DNA of 64,000 bases, from NCBI GenBank assembly GCA_020847855.1, contig JADLBH010000038.1, forward strand, positions 62,001-126,000, written 5' to 3'. Below, piece after piece: positions 33,421-46,626 of the stretch. Below the pieces are notes generated by a model. That model worked only from the letters and a program-made list of their open reading frames with translations, was not told the origin of the DNA and searched no databases. The stretch comes from Fimbriimonadaceae bacterium (GTDB lineage: Bacteria > Armatimonadota > Fimbriimonadia > Fimbriimonadales > Fimbriimonadaceae). The position numbers and the translations under genes were made by a program. Numbering within the stretch: the first letter of the stretch is position 1; each line of letters opens with the position of its first letter.

Positions 33421-35664
<2,244 letters not shown>

Positions 35665-35672
35665 AGTCCGCT

Positions 35673-35704
35673 GCCCCCCTCTCTCTTCCGTGGGAGAGGG
35701 GGGC
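35673..35704 (+). terminator. Hairpin after groEL
   Basis: An 11 bp stem (GCCCCCCTCTC and GAGAGGGGGGC) with a 10 nt loop, 9 nt after the groEL stop. There is no long T tract afterwards. Confidence 0.6.
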
Positions 35705-35758
35705 TCCGTACAATCAAGAGAGCCAACCGGGCCCGCTGGATACCAATCCACCCAGGCG

Positions 35759-36415
35759 ATGTCAGAGACTACTAGGCAGTGCGCGTACTGCGGGAACTCC
35801 GCGTCCCAAAGAGACCACGTCGTCCCCAAGGCCCTACTGCCTAACGGGACTCGCGGAATTCTCGTGCCGTCTTGCGAACCGTGCAACAGCGCGAAGTCAA
35901 AGTCCGACGAGTTTCTACGCAATTTCTTCGCGGTTGACTACAGGACCTGTAAGCTAGAGGTAACTCACCACCTCCGCAAAAAGGCGGAGAAGCAGGCGGA
36001 GCACCGTGTCGCTCGTAACCCGACTCGAACTCATCGCGAGCCGGAGTACGTGCCGGTGATCCTCCCGACCGGAGATCTCGTCAAGTACCCAACACTTACG
36101 ATTGACGGATCGGTGTTGAAGGTGGCCCTAGAATGGATTGCCAGGGGGCTCAACTACCACCATCGCAAGTTCGTCGTGCCTGAGGACGCTGAAATCGAGG
36201 TCTGGACCTACGACGAGAGCGGTCGCACGTCCTTCCAAGACGTGAGCCGAATGAGCGGCTTCAACGGCCCATTCCAGATAGGCCACTGCTTCAAGTATGC
36301 GGTTCTCATCGTAGACGACAGGCCGACGTTTTCGAACTGGCTGTTCCTCTTTTACGACCTCGTGCACTTTGCGGTCGCAATCGAGGATCGGGCGCTTCAC
36401 GATGTGCACAAATGA
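35759..36415 (+). CDS. HNH endonuclease-like protein
   Basis: A 218-residue protein. Its N-terminal part is an HNH-type zinc finger nuclease: CAYCGNSASQRDHVVPKALL then CEPCNSAKSKSD, giving CxxC, DH, CxxCN. The remaining 150 residues do not resemble a known nuclease appendage. Its codons use more AT than the chaperonin next to it, suggesting an accessory gene. I start at ATG 35759; the frame reaches upstream to 35690 but that part overlaps the groEL hairpin. The function could be restriction, a toxin or homing, and nothing nearby decides it. Confidence 0.8.
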   Translation: MSETTRQCAYCGNSASQRDHVVPKALLPNGTRGILVPSCEPCNSAKSKSDEFLRNFFAVDYRTCKLEVTHHLRKKAEKQAEHRVARNPTRTHREPEYVPVILPTGDLVKYPTLTIDGSVLKVALEWIARGLNYHHRKFVVPEDAEIEVWTYDESGRTSFQDVSRMSGFNGPFQIGHCFKYAVLIVDDRPTFSNWLFLFYDLVHFAVAIEDRALHDVHK

Positions 36416-36609
36416 TCTACCTAGCAGACACCTTCCGGAGCTACGAGGTTTGCTCCGAAGCAGTGACGCCTAGACTCGCGTCCTCATTCCGGGGGCCCGT
36501 TAGCCCGTTTCCAAGTATGTTGCACCCAATAAGCGGCGGTATGGACGACACGAATATCTAGTATCCGTGTGTCCCTCTCCTCCCTTTGTAGCCAAGCGGG
36601 GGGAGACGT

Positions 36610-36900
36610 TCAAAGGCTGAGTTCAAGCTCCGTTAGCTTTTTCGCAGCGAGCATTCTCGGCTCGTCAGGGCTACGGATCCCCATGTAGACCGTCTCGATC
36701 TCCAAAAGGTGGGCGTAGATTTTGTGCGCGTCTGCGCCGTCCAGGATCAGGCGGATGATCTGCGACGCATACGGCGCGTACTCCCCCGTTGCTCCTGGAT
36801 CGTCGTTGACCCCGATCGGGTCCCAATCCATCCACAGGATGCGGTCTACCTTTTGCACCGCGTCCTTGTATCTTCTGCCTGCGCTAGCGCTTCTCGGCAC
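36610..36900 (-). CDS. Small hypothetical protein (96 aa)
   Basis: A 96-residue soluble protein. The central WDPIGVNDDPGA, EYAPYASQIIRLILDGAD and HLLEIETVYMGI segments recur in a widespread uncharacterised family of small bacterial proteins that I know only by pattern. The GTG start at 36900 is set by a shared palindromic -10 box 7 nt upstream. Confidence 0.65.
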   Translation of the reverse strand: MPRSASAGRRYKDAVQKVDRILWMDWDPIGVNDDPGATGEYAPYASQIIRLILDGADAHKIYAHLLEIETVYMGIRSPDEPRMLAAKKLTELELSL

Positions 36901-36907
36901 TGGCGAC

Positions 36908-36915
36908 AGTATACT
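36908..36915. promoter_or_regulatory. Symmetric bidirectional leaderless promoter
   Basis: AGTATACT is a perfect palindrome, so a TATACT -10 box reads on each strand. The gap to the GTG at 36900 (minus) and to the GTG at 36923 (plus) is 7 nt in both directions. This one element appears to drive both genes. Confidence 0.55.
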
Positions 36916-36922
36916 TCCGGGC

Positions 36923-37441
36923 GTGAGGTGGCGAGACTGGCTCGTTTCTCAACCCTGGAAGAAGCTCATCGCTACGCTCGCCGAAGTCGCGGCAGCGTCC
37001 ACCATGCTTTGCGCTATCGCCGGAGGCACCTCGCACGCAATCTCCCTCAATTTCGCGATGGACGGGTACGACATGGTGTTCGGCTGCGGGACGATGCCCG
37101 ACCCGCCGCTGGGCAACCACACGGTCTGCGCCTTTCTGGTCGGTATGATCCGAACGTGGTGGATTGGCCTCGCTTGGGCGCCCCTAGTCTTCGCAATTGC
37201 AGGATACGCGGATGCGGACATGCGGCCCTCGAGGCTCGCGCGAGCGATGGGCCTCGGTATAGGCGCGATGTGCCTCGCCGTAATCGCGAGTCTCGCGACC
37301 CAGCTCGACAATTCGTATGGCTTGGGCTGGGTGTTCTTCGAGACGATACTGAACTTCGGGTACCCCATTCTCAACCTTGGTCTAACCATTATGGGCCTTG
37401 CGCTACGACCGAAGACAGCGCTCTCGGCCACTACAGCTTAA
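36923..37441 (+). CDS. Multi-pass membrane protein of unknown function
   Basis: A 172-residue protein with an N-terminal WKKLIA tail and four or five hydrophobic segments (near residues 16-35, 62-80, 100-118 and 127-160). A cysteine pair lies in the FGCGTMPDPP loop and HTVCAFL segment. GTG 36923 is chosen from the shared -10 box; the longer frame from 36722 lies under the divergent gene. No family is recognised. Confidence 0.65.
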   Translation: MRWRDWLVSQPWKKLIATLAEVAAASTMLCAIAGGTSHAISLNFAMDGYDMVFGCGTMPDPPLGNHTVCAFLVGMIRTWWIGLAWAPLVFAIAGYADADMRPSRLARAMGLGIGAMCLAVIASLATQLDNSYGLGWVFFETILNFGYPILNLGLTIMGLALRPKTALSATTA

Positions 37442-37751
37442 CGCGCTTGCGATCCTGCTCGAAAGCTTACAACCAAGCATACTGGGGCGAAGATGAGTGA
37501 GCCCTTTCCTTTGCTCCACCACCCACCGCGGCCGGAAATGAGCGGCAAGGGGCACGACCGCACCCCCGGGGGTAACCGACGTTATACACTCTGCAGGCCA
37601 GTACGCGCACGAGGACACGCTTACTCAGCGAGCCGTGGCTCGGGGCCGTGTGCGGGAACCCGCTAGGGAGTTGTAAGGGGTCGAGATCCTGATTGCCGCG
37701 TAGGTAGCCCGATAAGACCTATCTGACCGATATGGCCTATAGGGTCCATGC
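37442..37751 (+). other. Gap with no clear gene
   Basis: No natural-looking frame seen. The last 70 bases carry a loose repeat of a GACCTAT/CGATAT/CCTATAGG type just before the four-helix-bundle gene, echoing the tyrosine-coding repeats inside that gene. Confidence 0.35.
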
Positions 37752-37757
37752 TAGAGT
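37752..37757 (+). promoter_or_regulatory. Predicted -10 box of a leaderless promoter
   Basis: TAGAGT, 7 nt before the ATG at 37765. Confidence 0.45.
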
Positions 37758-37764
37758 CGGTGCC

Positions 37765-38319
37765 ATGGACGAGCTCCTGATCCCTCCGCACGGCGGGTAT
37801 CAGCGGCTCCGTGCTTATCAGATGGCCGTCGTTGTGCACGACGCTACTGTCGCCTTTTGCGACCTCTACATCGAAAGGAAGAGCCGGACGAACGACCAGA
37901 TGGTCCAAGCGACAAGGAGCAGGAAGCAGAACATCGTCGAAGGGAGCATGGCGAGCGGAGCGTCGAAGAAGATGGAGCTTAAGCTCGCCGGAACGGACAG
38001 GGCGAGCCTCGAGGAGCTGCTCACCGACTGCACGGACTTCTTGCGCCAGAGCGGGTACGCACTCTGATCCCGCGGCCACGTGAAGGCGTTGTTCATCAGG
38101 AGGCTTTGCTTTAGGACGGATAGGACTTTTAAGACCTGTAATTCATATATTGAAGACAGGGGCCCAGAGAACGCCGCCAACACCATGATCTGCCTGGTCA
38201 ACCAGACCAACTAACTTCTGGACCGGCTCCTCCGCCGATTGGAGAACGACTTCCTCGAAGAAGGCGGGTTCACCGAGCGCCTGTACCGAACCCGCTCGCA
38301 CGCACGGGATCGGCGATAG
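37765..38319 (+). pseudogene. Four-helix-bundle suffix protein gene with two in-frame stops
   Basis: The 5' part encodes MDELLIPPHGGYQRLRAYQ, SRTNDQMVQATRSRKQNIVEG and RASLEELLTDCTDFLRQSGY, the signature of the four-helix-bundle (S23 intervening-sequence-like) suffix family. The frame stops at TGA 38065-38067, then continues in the same frame with a FRTDRTFKTCNSYIED tyrosine-repeat remnant and ENAANTMICLVNQTN. It stops again at TAA 38212-38214 and ends LLDRLLRRLENDFLEEGGF up to TAG 38317. In intact relatives a Trp and a Tyr probably stand at the two stops (from memory). So it is most likely a recently inactivated gene; the first 100 residues could still be made. Confidence 0.72.
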
Positions 38320-38397
38320 CCGCCGGAGTCGGCCCGGAGCGACAGTGACTTGAGCCTCGCGAAGCACCCGCAGCTCCCATCAACGCCCCACTGCGTG

Positions 38398-38403
38398 TAC
38401 ACT
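38398..38403 (+). promoter_or_regulatory. Predicted -10 box of a leaderless promoter
   Basis: TACACT, 6 nt before the ATG at 38410 of the ankyrin-repeat protein. Confidence 0.5.
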
Positions 38404-38409
38404 CCCATT

Positions 38410-38985
38410 ATGGATCGTCACCTCTCGCGTCGCTCCCTGTTGGCAGCCTCGGCTGGTGCGCTCATCGCGCCAGTTGCCCTCGCCCAAGAAAAGAAGCCCG
38501 AAGAAGCCGCGTTCGAGCGCGACTATCCTGCGCCTGCTTTCAAGCCGTCTTGGAAGTCCGCGCAGACCAACCGGACGCTCGTCCAAGACTTCGTCATCTA
38601 CGCCCATTCCGATCTCGAAATGACGCGCAAGTTCCTCGATCGGGACGCAACGCTCGTCAACGCATTCATGGATTGGGGCGCCGGCGATTGGGAGTCGGCG
38701 CTGGGTGGGGCGTCGCACATGGGTCGCCACGATATTGTCCGGCTCCTGCTGGAGCGCGGGGCACGGATGGATATCTTTTGTGCGACCATGATGGGGCAGT
38801 TGGACGTGGTCAAGGCGATGCTGACGCTCGAGCCGAGGCTCGTTGACTCCCGCGGCCCCCACGGGTTCTCGCTGCACTTCCATGGTCAGCTGGCAGGCGA
38901 GCAGGCGGGCCCGATGGTCGAATACTTGCAAAGCGTTAAGAAGGTCGAGCTGAAACCGAACCCGTTCGTGAAGAAGGACGGTTAG
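38410..38985 (+). CDS. Exported ankyrin-repeat protein
   Basis: A 191-residue protein with an N-terminal RRSLLAASAGALIAPVALA that fits a Tat or Sec leader (twin arginine, hydrophobic core). The mature part has ankyrin-type repeats: TRKFLDRDATLVNAFMDWGA, SALGGASHMGRHDIVRLLLE and FCATMMGQLDVVKAMLTLEP. Ankyrin repeats bind partners, which are unknown here. Start ATG 38410 fits the leader. It ends with a 4 nt overlap with the convergent TPR-thioredoxin gene. Confidence 0.78.
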   Translation: MDRHLSRRSLLAASAGALIAPVALAQEKKPEEAAFERDYPAPAFKPSWKSAQTNRTLVQDFVIYAHSDLEMTRKFLDRDATLVNAFMDWGAGDWESALGGASHMGRHDIVRLLLERGARMDIFCATMMGQLDVVKAMLTLEPRLVDSRGPHGFSLHFHGQLAGEQAGPMVEYLQSVKKVELKPNPFVKKDG

Positions 38986-41177
38986 CGCGGGGCTTCGCTA
39001 CCTATTCGAGTGGAGTTCCTAGCTGCAACGTCTCCGTTGACTCGACGCAGTTCCCGCAGCAAGTAATCCACATTCGAGAAGGGGTCTCCTCCCGTGCGTT
39101 TCCAACGGACCCGACCCTGCGCGTCAATCAAGATCGTCGAATGTAGCTCCATACCCTCGAAGTCGTCATAAGAGGAGTACCGACGAGCGTTCTCATGGTC
39201 ACGGTCCGAGAGACGCTGGATGCCAAAAGTCCCCAGTTTCAAAGACTCCTTATTGGCCTCAGGCGTTGCGCTGCTGACGGCAAGCACCACCGTGTCCGCC
39301 TTCTCAAAGTCGGCAATCTGTCCGTTGATCTTGGACAATTGTTCCACGCAGTGGATGCACTCTTCGTTCAAGAAGAAGACCAAGAGCACGTTCTTGCCCT
39401 TGAACTGGTCCAGCGTGACCATGCTCCCATCCTTATCACGGCATTCTAGTTTAGGGGCGGCAAACGGCTCCCAGTTGCTGGGGCCGTAGGAAGCGAGTTC
39501 GGCCTGGCTGTAGGGCCTCTCCTTTGCCGGAACGTCGGCGACCGGTTTTGCACCCAGTTTCAATCCTTGTACTTCCGCTACCCATCGGAGCCCGGGGTCG
39601 GCGCCAGACCAGACATACAAGAACTTTCCGGCATATTCCGTGGCCCGTGCAGTCTCACCCAAGGCGGTATGAGCACGGGCCAATCCAGCGAGCGAAAAGC
39701 CATCGTTCTTCTCCGCCTCGAGCGCCTTGCCATAGGCTTCGATCGCTAAACGATAGTCACCACGCTTCATGAAAAGATCGCCTACGAGCCGAATGGCCGG
39801 CCAAGGGCTGAAGGGGGGGTCACCGCCATAGAGATGCTTCGTCGAAGCTTCGAGCAGTCCTTGGAGGCCTTCGAGCGGCTTGCCTTCGGCGGCCAACACA
39901 AGACCTTCTACGGTTTTGAACTGCGGCGTGATGTAAGGCTCGAACTCCTTGTTCTTGGCGAGGACTCTAGCCGTCGCCTCTTTCAGCTCGTCCAATCTCG
40001 CGCGAGCCTCTGCGACCTGGTCCTTGCCGACATGGGCAATGACCTCGGCCGCTAAGCGCTCGAACTGGGAATCCTCGCCAGAACCCCAGGGGACGGACCC
40101 CGGCCTCAGGATGTCGTCCCACCGCTCGAACTTGATGTAGGCGCGAACCAAGGCTGCTCGCCCCTCTGCATAGCCGCCCTGCTCCAGGTTGTCCGCTGCA
40201 GGGTCGGTCGGCGAAGCTAGCAAGTCCTTCGCACCTTGGATGCTGGCTTCGGCCATCCCCAGTTGCTCTTGAATGTAACAGAGATAGTTTCGGTTGTGCG
40301 GAAAGTTCCAGGTTTCGTAGGGCAGCGCCAAGCGCTGGTTCATGTACCGCAGTTCGGTCCGCGTTGCCGAGTCCATGCTCCTGGCCGCTTCGTGCCACAT
40401 CCCCATCTTGCTATAGGCGTGACCGGGCATATGGAGCGCGTGGCCGACGGCCGGGGCCGACTTGCCATACATTTCACAACTGTGGAGCGCTTGAGTCGGG
40501 TTCGAGTAGTCCCAGTTGTGGATGCTCGCGTGGTGTGCTCCAGGGTGCAAAGGGTTTTTGGCAAGCACCTCGTCAATCAAGCCCTGCGTTGCATAGGAAG
40601 TCCCCGGGCCCTCGATACTGTGGAAGGCGAGCAGCGCCTTGGCCTCGACATCGTCCGGGAACTTCAGTACGATGCGTTCGAGAGCAGGCCTCAGCACGTC
40701 GTTCGGCTTTGGGGTTCCAGGGGCGAAAGCCGCAGCCCAGGCCTCGATGTAAAGACGCTCGCGTTCCGTCACCTTGCCCTTTCGCTTGATGGCTTCGGCC
40801 AGGAAGAGTCGGTAGCGGTCCTTGGGATCGTCGCCTACTTTGCCTCCTGATGCGAACCAGTTGTAGCCACAACGGGCGAGTCCCCAGTACGCCATCGCGC
40901 ACTCAGGGTCGAGCTTGAGGCACCAGCGGAAAGAACGCTCGGCCTCTTCGAACCAAAAGCTATGCAGCAACGCGTTTCCTTGGTCGAACCACTCCTGCAC
41001 CTGTGCCGAGGAACTTGTGATGGGAAACGGCGTGTCGCCGATCCCTTCCATCTTCCATGGCTTGGTTCGCATTCCAGAGTCGAAAGCGGTCCCCTTCTTC
41101 GAGTGGCCGGCCTCGTCTGCTCGAGCAAGGGTCGGGGCTGCACACAGAAGTATCGCGAGAGTAAGAGCAGTTCGCAT
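38982..41177 (-). CDS. TPR protein fused to a thioredoxin-like domain
   Basis: A 731-residue protein with a signal peptide (RTALTLAILLCAAPTLARA). TPR helices fill most of the first 560 residues (WFDQGNALLHSFWFEEAERS, WCLKLDPECAMAYWGLARCG, then later units). The C-terminal 160 residues are an AhpC/TSA-type thioredoxin fold (LECRDKDGSMVTLDQFKGK, VLLVFFLNEECIHCVEQLSK). The pair CIHC is a CxxC active site. The fusion suggests a periplasmic redox enzyme carried on a TPR scaffold. Start ATG 41177 fits the leader; the longer frame to 41216 is not needed. Confidence 0.8.
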   Translation of the reverse strand: MRTALTLAILLCAAPTLARADEAGHSKKGTAFDSGMRTKPWKMEGIGDTPFPITSSSAQVQEWFDQGNALLHSFWFEEAERSFRWCLKLDPECAMAYWGLARCGYNWFASGGKVGDDPKDRYRLFLAEAIKRKGKVTERERLYIEAWAAAFAPGTPKPNDVLRPALERIVLKFPDDVEAKALLAFHSIEGPGTSYATQGLIDEVLAKNPLHPGAHHASIHNWDYSNPTQALHSCEMYGKSAPAVGHALHMPGHAYSKMGMWHEAARSMDSATRTELRYMNQRLALPYETWNFPHNRNYLCYIQEQLGMAEASIQGAKDLLASPTDPAADNLEQGGYAEGRAALVRAYIKFERWDDILRPGSVPWGSGEDSQFERLAAEVIAHVGKDQVAEARARLDELKEATARVLAKNKEFEPYITPQFKTVEGLVLAAEGKPLEGLQGLLEASTKHLYGGDPPFSPWPAIRLVGDLFMKRGDYRLAIEAYGKALEAEKNDGFSLAGLARAHTALGETARATEYAGKFLYVWSGADPGLRWVAEVQGLKLGAKPVADVPAKERPYSQAELASYGPSNWEPFAAPKLECRDKDGSMVTLDQFKGKNVLLVFFLNEECIHCVEQLSKINGQIADFEKADTVVLAVSSATPEANKESLKLGTFGIQRLSDRDHENARRYSSYDDFEGMELHSTILIDAQGRVRWKRTGGDPFSNVDYLLRELRRVNGDVAARNSTRIGSEAPR

Positions 41178-45573: not shown

Positions 45574-46626
45574 CTACCGAACCAGCCTCGGGAGCGGCTT
45601 GGCAGCCTTGGGTTGTGCGGCACAATAATCAAAGCCAAGAAGGGCGGCGATGCTGGACGCGACCTGGCCATTGCTCACGCCCGCCTCGCCGCGCACGGTC
45701 CCGAGAGGAGGCGAGTCCGGCCCCAGGATCATGATCCAGGTGTGCTCCGCGTTCGTGATCTTCTCCCCGTGAGACGTCCATTCGCTTCCATCACCTCTGC
45801 CGTGGTCCGTGGTGATCACTAGCGTTGTCTTGTCCTTATACTTGGGGAGGGACTGAAGCATGCCCCAATACCCCTTCAGCCAACGATCGAAACGGTGGGC
45901 CGCGTTGAGATACTTCGCATAGTTGCCACTATGGGCATAGGAGTCAGTCTCACCGAACAAAACGCCCATGAGTCGCGGCTGCTTGGTTCTCAGATAGAGC
46001 ATGGAGGCCTCGTAGGTAAAGGCGTCTGCCGGGTCGGGCGGAAACGGGTGGTCGGTCTGAGCTTGCAGCCGATTCAGCATCCGAGCCTCTGCCGAGCCCG
46101 TGAACGTGATAGGCTCCATGCCGCTCTGTACATAAAAACCGCACCTTTCCTTATTGAATATACTAGACACGACGTACCAGTTTCCAAATGCAGCCACCTT
46201 GCCTTCCATCCCTTTCTGCTTGTTCAACCATTCGAAGACCGTAACGTTCGGGTTCGGAACCGCATCGTTGCTACGAATCTCCGGATCCACGAAGCCTTGC
46301 AGGGTCTCCGAGTAGCCTGGGTAGCTAAACTTGAGACCGTTGAGCACCTGGCACGGTGTGCCGGACCTCCTGTCGCCATAGAGCTGGCCCTTGGCGGCGA
46401 TGGTGGACCACGTGAAGGGCATCAGGGCCTGCCGCCGTGCCTCGACAGTCTCTCTCCAATACGCTTTATAGTGAGCGTCCTCTGGTTTGGCGGCTTTCAT
46501 CAGGTCCGGCTCCGCTCCCTCGAACAGTTCCTGCCACCGCAAGCCGTCGGTGAAGAGGAAGAGAACGTTTTTCGTCTTTGTTGCGGGTTGGAAAAGAATC
46601 ACTGTGGCAAGGGCGGTGGCGAACAC
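45574..46626 (-). CDS. Exported alkaline phosphatase-superfamily protein
   Basis: A 350-residue protein with a hydrophobic start (FATALATVILFQPA). The metal-site motifs of the alkaline phosphatase superfamily are KNVLFLFTDGLRWQELF (D27) and VITTDHGRG (about residues 286-294). The nucleophile residue cannot be confidently placed by eye, so whether it is a phosphatase, phosphodiesterase or phosphopentomutase-like enzyme is open. The GTG start has a TAGACT box 6 nt upstream. It is convergent with the lysyltransferase-like gene. Confidence 0.78.
   Translation of the reverse strand: MFATALATVILFQPATKTKNVLFLFTDGLRWQELFEGAEPDLMKAAKPEDAHYKAYWRETVEARRQALMPFTWSTIAAKGQLYGDRRSGTPCQVLNGLKFSYPGYSETLQGFVDPEIRSNDAVPNPNVTVFEWLNKQKGMEGKVAAFGNWYVVSSIFNKERCGFYVQSGMEPITFTGSAEARMLNRLQAQTDHPFPPDPADAFTYEASMLYLRTKQPRLMGVLFGETDSYAHSGNYAKYLNAAHRFDRWLKGYWGMLQSLPKYKDKTTLVITTDHGRGDGSEWTSHGEKITNAEHTWIMILGPDSPPLGTVRGEAGVSNGQVASSIAALLGFDYCAAQPKAAKPLPRLVR

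Follow-up and report, generated by a model that had tools for sequence, protein, structure and literature searches.

A candidate shared -10 element for two divergent, putatively leaderless genes in a Fimbriimonadaceae genome

Bidirectional promoters and leaderless genes in other bacteria

Prokaryotic bidirectional promoters, in which a near-symmetrical -10 element is shared and divergent RNA starts have been mapped 7-25 bp apart, were described by Warman, Grainger and colleagues (PMC12825309; PMC10268837). Of the RNAs detected in E. coli, 19% come from such promoters, and the commonest spacing between the two transcription start sites is 18 bp, with 10 and 23 bp also being common (PMC12825309). 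The basal level of all five E. coli bidirectional promoters tested was too weak for polymerase competition, and the partner was repressed only once one direction had been strongly activated (PMC12825309).

A locus in the window analyzed here (the window being the whole stretch of DNA, 64,000 nucleotides in length) resembles these promoters in that its putative -10 element is near-symmetrical and shared, and the spacing that it implies between the two RNA starts is 21-23 bp, compared with the described 23 bp. However, there are also differences. The E. coli promoters are defined by mapped RNA starts, whereas the site in the window is known from sequence alone, and both of its products are predicted to be leaderless mRNAs, so that the promoter would fill the whole gap between the two genes. 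The site is probably a further, compact example of an already known promoter type.

The locus also has features of described leaderless genes. As in the genes analyzed by Zheng et al. 2011, there is a TANNNT motif with its first T about 12 nt from the start (PMC3160421), and as in Deinococcus-Thermus, the -10 element is adjacent to the open reading frame, 6-7 bp upstream (PMC12340547). A high-G+C genome and the lack of a -35 signal are common to the genome studied here and to both of these leaderless systems (PMC3160421; PMC12340547). The two papers treat one gene at a time, whereas the case in the window is a divergent pair; the terms divergent and bidirectional are absent from the Deinococcus paper (PMC12340547), Armatimonadetes are not named in Zheng et al. 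2011 (PMC3160421), and our literature search found no earlier report of leaderless genes in Armatimonadota/Armatimonadetes. The lysG and lysE genes of Mycobacterium tuberculosis are likewise divergent, with overlapping promoters, and one of them also has a leaderless transcript, but they do not share one box, and their 108-bp intergenic region contains an inverted repeat to which a regulator binds (PMC5648196).

The leaderless signal and the box between the two starts

The genome is a MAG of the Fimbriimonadaceae (Armatimonadota) with 2.53 Mb in 41 contigs and 97% completeness, and the window lies on a contig of 178.9 kb. Statistics were taken from a sample of 1.16 of the 2.53 Mb (46% of the genome), consisting of the window and L015-L074, with a G+C content of 63.6%. 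A simple home-made codon-based caller gave 1021 usable genes. A TANNNT motif has its first T 12 nt ahead of the start codon in 74 of these 1021 genes and 13 nt ahead in 26 (100 in total), compared with background values of about 7 at each position from 20 to 40 nt, and of about 0.2% before internal in-frame ATG/GTG codons. Aligned on the start, these sites have G at the two positions preceding TA and A or C in the middle, and no -35 signal was seen upstream of them in the genome sample. This strong enrichment of TANNNT at 12-13 nt without a -35 signal is, at the level of sequence, the signature of leaderless genes; 200-kb samples of two relatives have a weaker excess at the same distances. A Shine-Dalgarno-like peak at 10-12 nt coexists with the TANNNT signal, and therefore both modes of initiation seem to be in use. 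This clear leaderless -10 signal, coming from an Armatimonadota genome, would aid the annotation of gene starts in a little-studied group.

A scoring matrix for the leaderless -10 element was built from the 100 TANNNT starts of this genome. Boxes of at least 8.71 bits at 12 or 13 nt precede 52 of 1016 called genes (5%), versus 7 of 14862 internal ATG/GTG codons (0.05%); by this measure, a start combined with a box as strong as that at the locus clearly exceeds chance on either strand. Elsewhere in the window, a divergent pair with starts at 46626 (minus strand) and 46726 (plus strand), 99 nt apart, also has a TANNNT 12 nt from both starts, here as separate boxes.

The region between the two GTG starts under study is 22 nt long (36901-36922) and is a putative bidirectional promoter with neither a -35 element nor a Shine-Dalgarno-like sequence. 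The base order is CAC (36898-36900), TGGCGAC, AGTATACT (36908-36915), TCCGGGC and GTG (36923-36925). The 8-bp palindrome AGTATACT, a putative shared -10 element on both strands, holds one copy of TATACT on the plus strand (36910-36915) and one on the minus strand (36913-36908), which overlap at the TATA of 36910-36913. In keeping with a bidirectional promoter, the -10 elements of the opposite strands thus overlap, and each scores 8.71 bits with the genome's own leaderless matrix; in keeping with leaderless starts, the spacers TCCGGGC and GTCGCCA contain no GGAG, AGGA or GAGG. The first T of TANNNT lies 13 nt before the start codon on either strand. As this is the second-best distance in the genome, a 1-nt leader and no leader at all are equally possible, and the position of both boxes counts against a shared promoter. 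The minus strand also offers an alternative box, TACTGT at 11 nt, which is weak (3.53 bits).

The initial annotation had placed the palindrome, the GTG codons at 36900 (minus) and 36923 (plus), the 7-nt gaps and the start-to-start distance of 22 nt correctly to the base, and its proposal of a -10-like box at leaderless distance on both strands is borne out, such boxes being general in this genome (the 100 of 1021 genes above). Its term "perfectly symmetric" applies to the 8-bp box and to the equal length of the gaps, but not beyond: the symmetry is exactly 8 bp, and the flanking C 36907 and T 36916, like the two 7-nt spacers, are non-complementary.

Taken together, it is rather probable that two leaderless genes are served by a bidirectional promoter with a shared box in the 22-nt gap, for which we infer transcription in both directions and leaderless translation. 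Counted in favor of this reading are both open frames, the genome-wide leaderless -10 signal and the further 22-nt pairs described below, all shown at the sequence level, together with the conservation of the minus gene and a minus start that fits the relatives. Without requiring a -35 element, RNA polymerase with the primary sigma factor would bind the symmetrical AGTATACT as a -10 element facing either way, and RNA would start at each GTG or 1 nt before it. The output would be two divergent leaderless mRNAs with starts about 21-23 bp from each other; one would encode a small WDPIGV-family protein and the other an orphan membrane protein. Two leaderless genes would each need a -10 element about 6-7 nt upstream, and between starts 22 nt apart only overlapping boxes would fit. 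This would be a near-smallest possible intergenic region for divergent protein genes, with one box and no -35 element, leader or ribosome-binding site. As the box would, by its position, fix the RNA and protein starts on both strands, the locus would be a clean natural setting in which to test whether the symmetry of a -10 element is by itself enough to produce two mRNAs.

On steric grounds, two polymerases would not be expected to occupy the one box simultaneously. The initial annotation went further and held that polymerases must compete for it, a conclusion that the weak basal activity of the five tested E. coli bidirectional promoters does not support (PMC12825309). It also suggested a switch, which gains no support from the surroundings of the site: no sigma-70-type -35/-10 pair, longer inverted repeat or regulator gene was found around it, and a scan of 36400-37600 for sigma-70-type promoters and terminators gave no match.

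The palindrome might instead be an operator for a regulator that represses both genes, with the real promoters overlapping it, since operators are often found as symmetrical sites midway between divergent genes. However, the palindrome comprises just 8 bp, a search for a longer inverted repeat around it found none, and neither product is regulator-like in Pfam, NCBIfam or PHROGs. In addition, AGTATACT is found once in the 1.16 Mb of genome (the copy in the window, where 0.07 would be expected); ANTATANT has 13 copies in the same 1.16 Mb. We consider an operator very improbable.

The two genes and their start codons

The minus gene (36610-36900, minus strand, GTG start) encodes a conserved small protein of the WDPIGV type with 96 amino acids, as indicated by its relatives, their alignment and a coding-like codon usage (+0.23 bits/codon, GC3 0.74). 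Relatives of the protein occur in 7 of 150 related genomes, and are also carried by plasmids of rhizobia, Paraburkholderia and others. Seven aligned members of the family have L22, W26 D27 P28, E40 Y41 and Y44 in common. A scan of genome contigs for the minus protein gave no match, and neither the minus nor the plus protein has a match in Pfam, NCBIfam, PHROGs, PADLOC or PDB. In one relative (L004:876-1746, a minus-strand frame of G150), we read the WDPIGV-type domain as fused to the C-terminus of an apparent JAMM/Mov34 metalloprotease domain, and this fusion gives a hint about the function of the family.

The start of the minus gene bears on a further explanation, namely that translation begins elsewhere (at GTG 36858 for the minus gene and at another codon for the plus gene), with ordinary leaders or promoters, and that the palindrome is a chance match. 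Our simple gene caller picked 36858 and 36839 for the two genes, which counts against the shared promoter, and AAGGA stands 4 nt upstream of GTG 36858. However, the relatives have 10-17 residues before the core "VD"; GTG 36900 gives 17, whereas GTG 36858 leaves 3. GTG 36900 is therefore the better minus start, because the length of the N-terminus before VD fits the relatives. Boxes this strong are, moreover, about 100 times rarer before internal codons than before gene starts. Other starts combined with a chance palindrome are thus quite unlikely, and the shared promoter remains the preferred reading of the two GTG positions.

The plus gene (36923-37441, plus strand, GTG start) would encode an orphan protein of 172 amino acids, in which hydropathy indicates about four hydrophobic segments, and the product looks like a membrane protein. 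The composition of the frame is coding-like (+0.18 bits/codon, GC3 0.75), and over the same DNA this frame is clearly more coding-like than those of the opposite strand. Searches of related genomes and protein-family databases found no credible homologue. Two weak matches in G014 and G039 were dropped, as one aligned stretch falls within the frame of an unrelated protein and the other within a frame containing a stop. The plus frame is likely a real gene on compositional grounds, and is less certain than the minus gene. Thus, of the two protein-coding genes assumed by the initial annotation, the minus gene stands as a member of a conserved family, and the plus gene, despite its coding-like composition, is an orphan and is held with less certainty.

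This lesser certainty leaves some room for the explanation that the minus gene is the sole real leaderless gene served by this -10 element, the plus frame being untranslated or starting elsewhere and any plus-strand RNA being a by-product. A palindromic -10 element automatically gives a mirror-image TATACT on the plus strand, one of the RNAs from published bidirectional promoters is in some cases non-coding (PMC10268837), and the lack of a credible homologue for the plus protein fits the same explanation. That the plus gene is an orphan, and that its frame is equalled in score by some shadow ORFs of comparable length (9 of 571), also counts against the shared promoter. Yet those 9 of 571 are few, the 172-codon frame is coding-like and beats the opposite-strand frames, its product resembles a membrane protein, and the plus-side GTG is likewise exactly at leaderless distance. 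A functional minus gene on its own is therefore somewhat unlikely, and we retain the reading with two leaderless genes.

Other divergent pairs and the surroundings of the locus

The search of the genome for similar palindromes that the initial annotation proposed shows that the arrangement is not unique, even though AGTATACT itself is single in the sample. Two more divergent pairs in this genome are separated by exactly 22 nt. Every gene in them has its TANNNT at 12 nt, and within a pair the boxes share one TA. In the first (L067, 7414/7437), the genes encode a receiver-like protein (our reading of the N-terminus, with no Pfam match) and an MtnA-like protein (IF-2B domain, E 8e-78). In the second (L226, 1503/1526), one product is RmuC-like and has an N-terminal membrane segment, and the other is PrpB/isocitrate-lyase-like, both names being our reading of the sequence. 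A scan of the whole genome for the geometry of these two pairs gave 3 matches, 2 of which are the pairs themselves, compared with 1 in the reversed control. Relatives provide two further cases with a ANTATANT core: a 22-nt pair of a PALP enzyme and a small membrane-anchored protein (L162), and a 20-nt pair of two 3-keto-disaccharide hydrolases, each apparently with a signal peptide at its start (L188).

For 432 candidate starts, a rough estimate puts the number of chance pairs at gaps of 16-26 nt in the sample at 0.4-2, and the observed number of distinct pairs was 2; two strong leaderless starts back to back are in themselves unexceptional. In relatives, the exact symmetrical pattern is found 28 v 18 and 27 v 12 times against the reversed control (our own counts; combined p=0.004), and another comparison across related genomes gives 220 v 182 controls (p=0.03). 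An off-register geometry has no excess across related genomes (185 v 215), and the 18-bp geometry, the commonest in E. coli, shows no enrichment between the starts of this family (142 v 199 in related genomes). The symmetrical pattern was rejected as a conserved element, because in 151 genomes it exceeds the reversed control only slightly, and the majority of its matches do not have two open frames. Searches of related genomes found no orthologous copy of the window gene pair; this and the weak enrichment in relatives count against the shared promoter. The excess over controls being small, such pairs seem to arise now and then where leaderless genes abut, and do not form a conserved cassette. 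It is doubtful that the Fimbriimonadaceae repeatedly use an arrangement in which a single shared -10 element takes up the entire 22-nt gap between divergent leaderless genes, dictates where transcription and translation begin for both, and couples their expression.

The pair lies in the part of the window with the lowest G+C content (36001-40000, 0.594), which is like a small accessory island. An HNH-endonuclease-like gene beside the pair (35690-36415) has weak similarity to PtuB-type defense nucleases, and a 23S-rRNA-IVP-like four-helix protein is encoded at 37732-38067. GroEL, which is encoded slightly to the left of the pair, is 88% identical to the GroEL of a Fimbriimonadaceae MAG, which makes it most likely that the organism belongs to this family. 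The GroEL open reading frame as listed (33508-35664) begins about 175 codons ahead of what is likely the true start, and relatives align only from residue 145-180 on.
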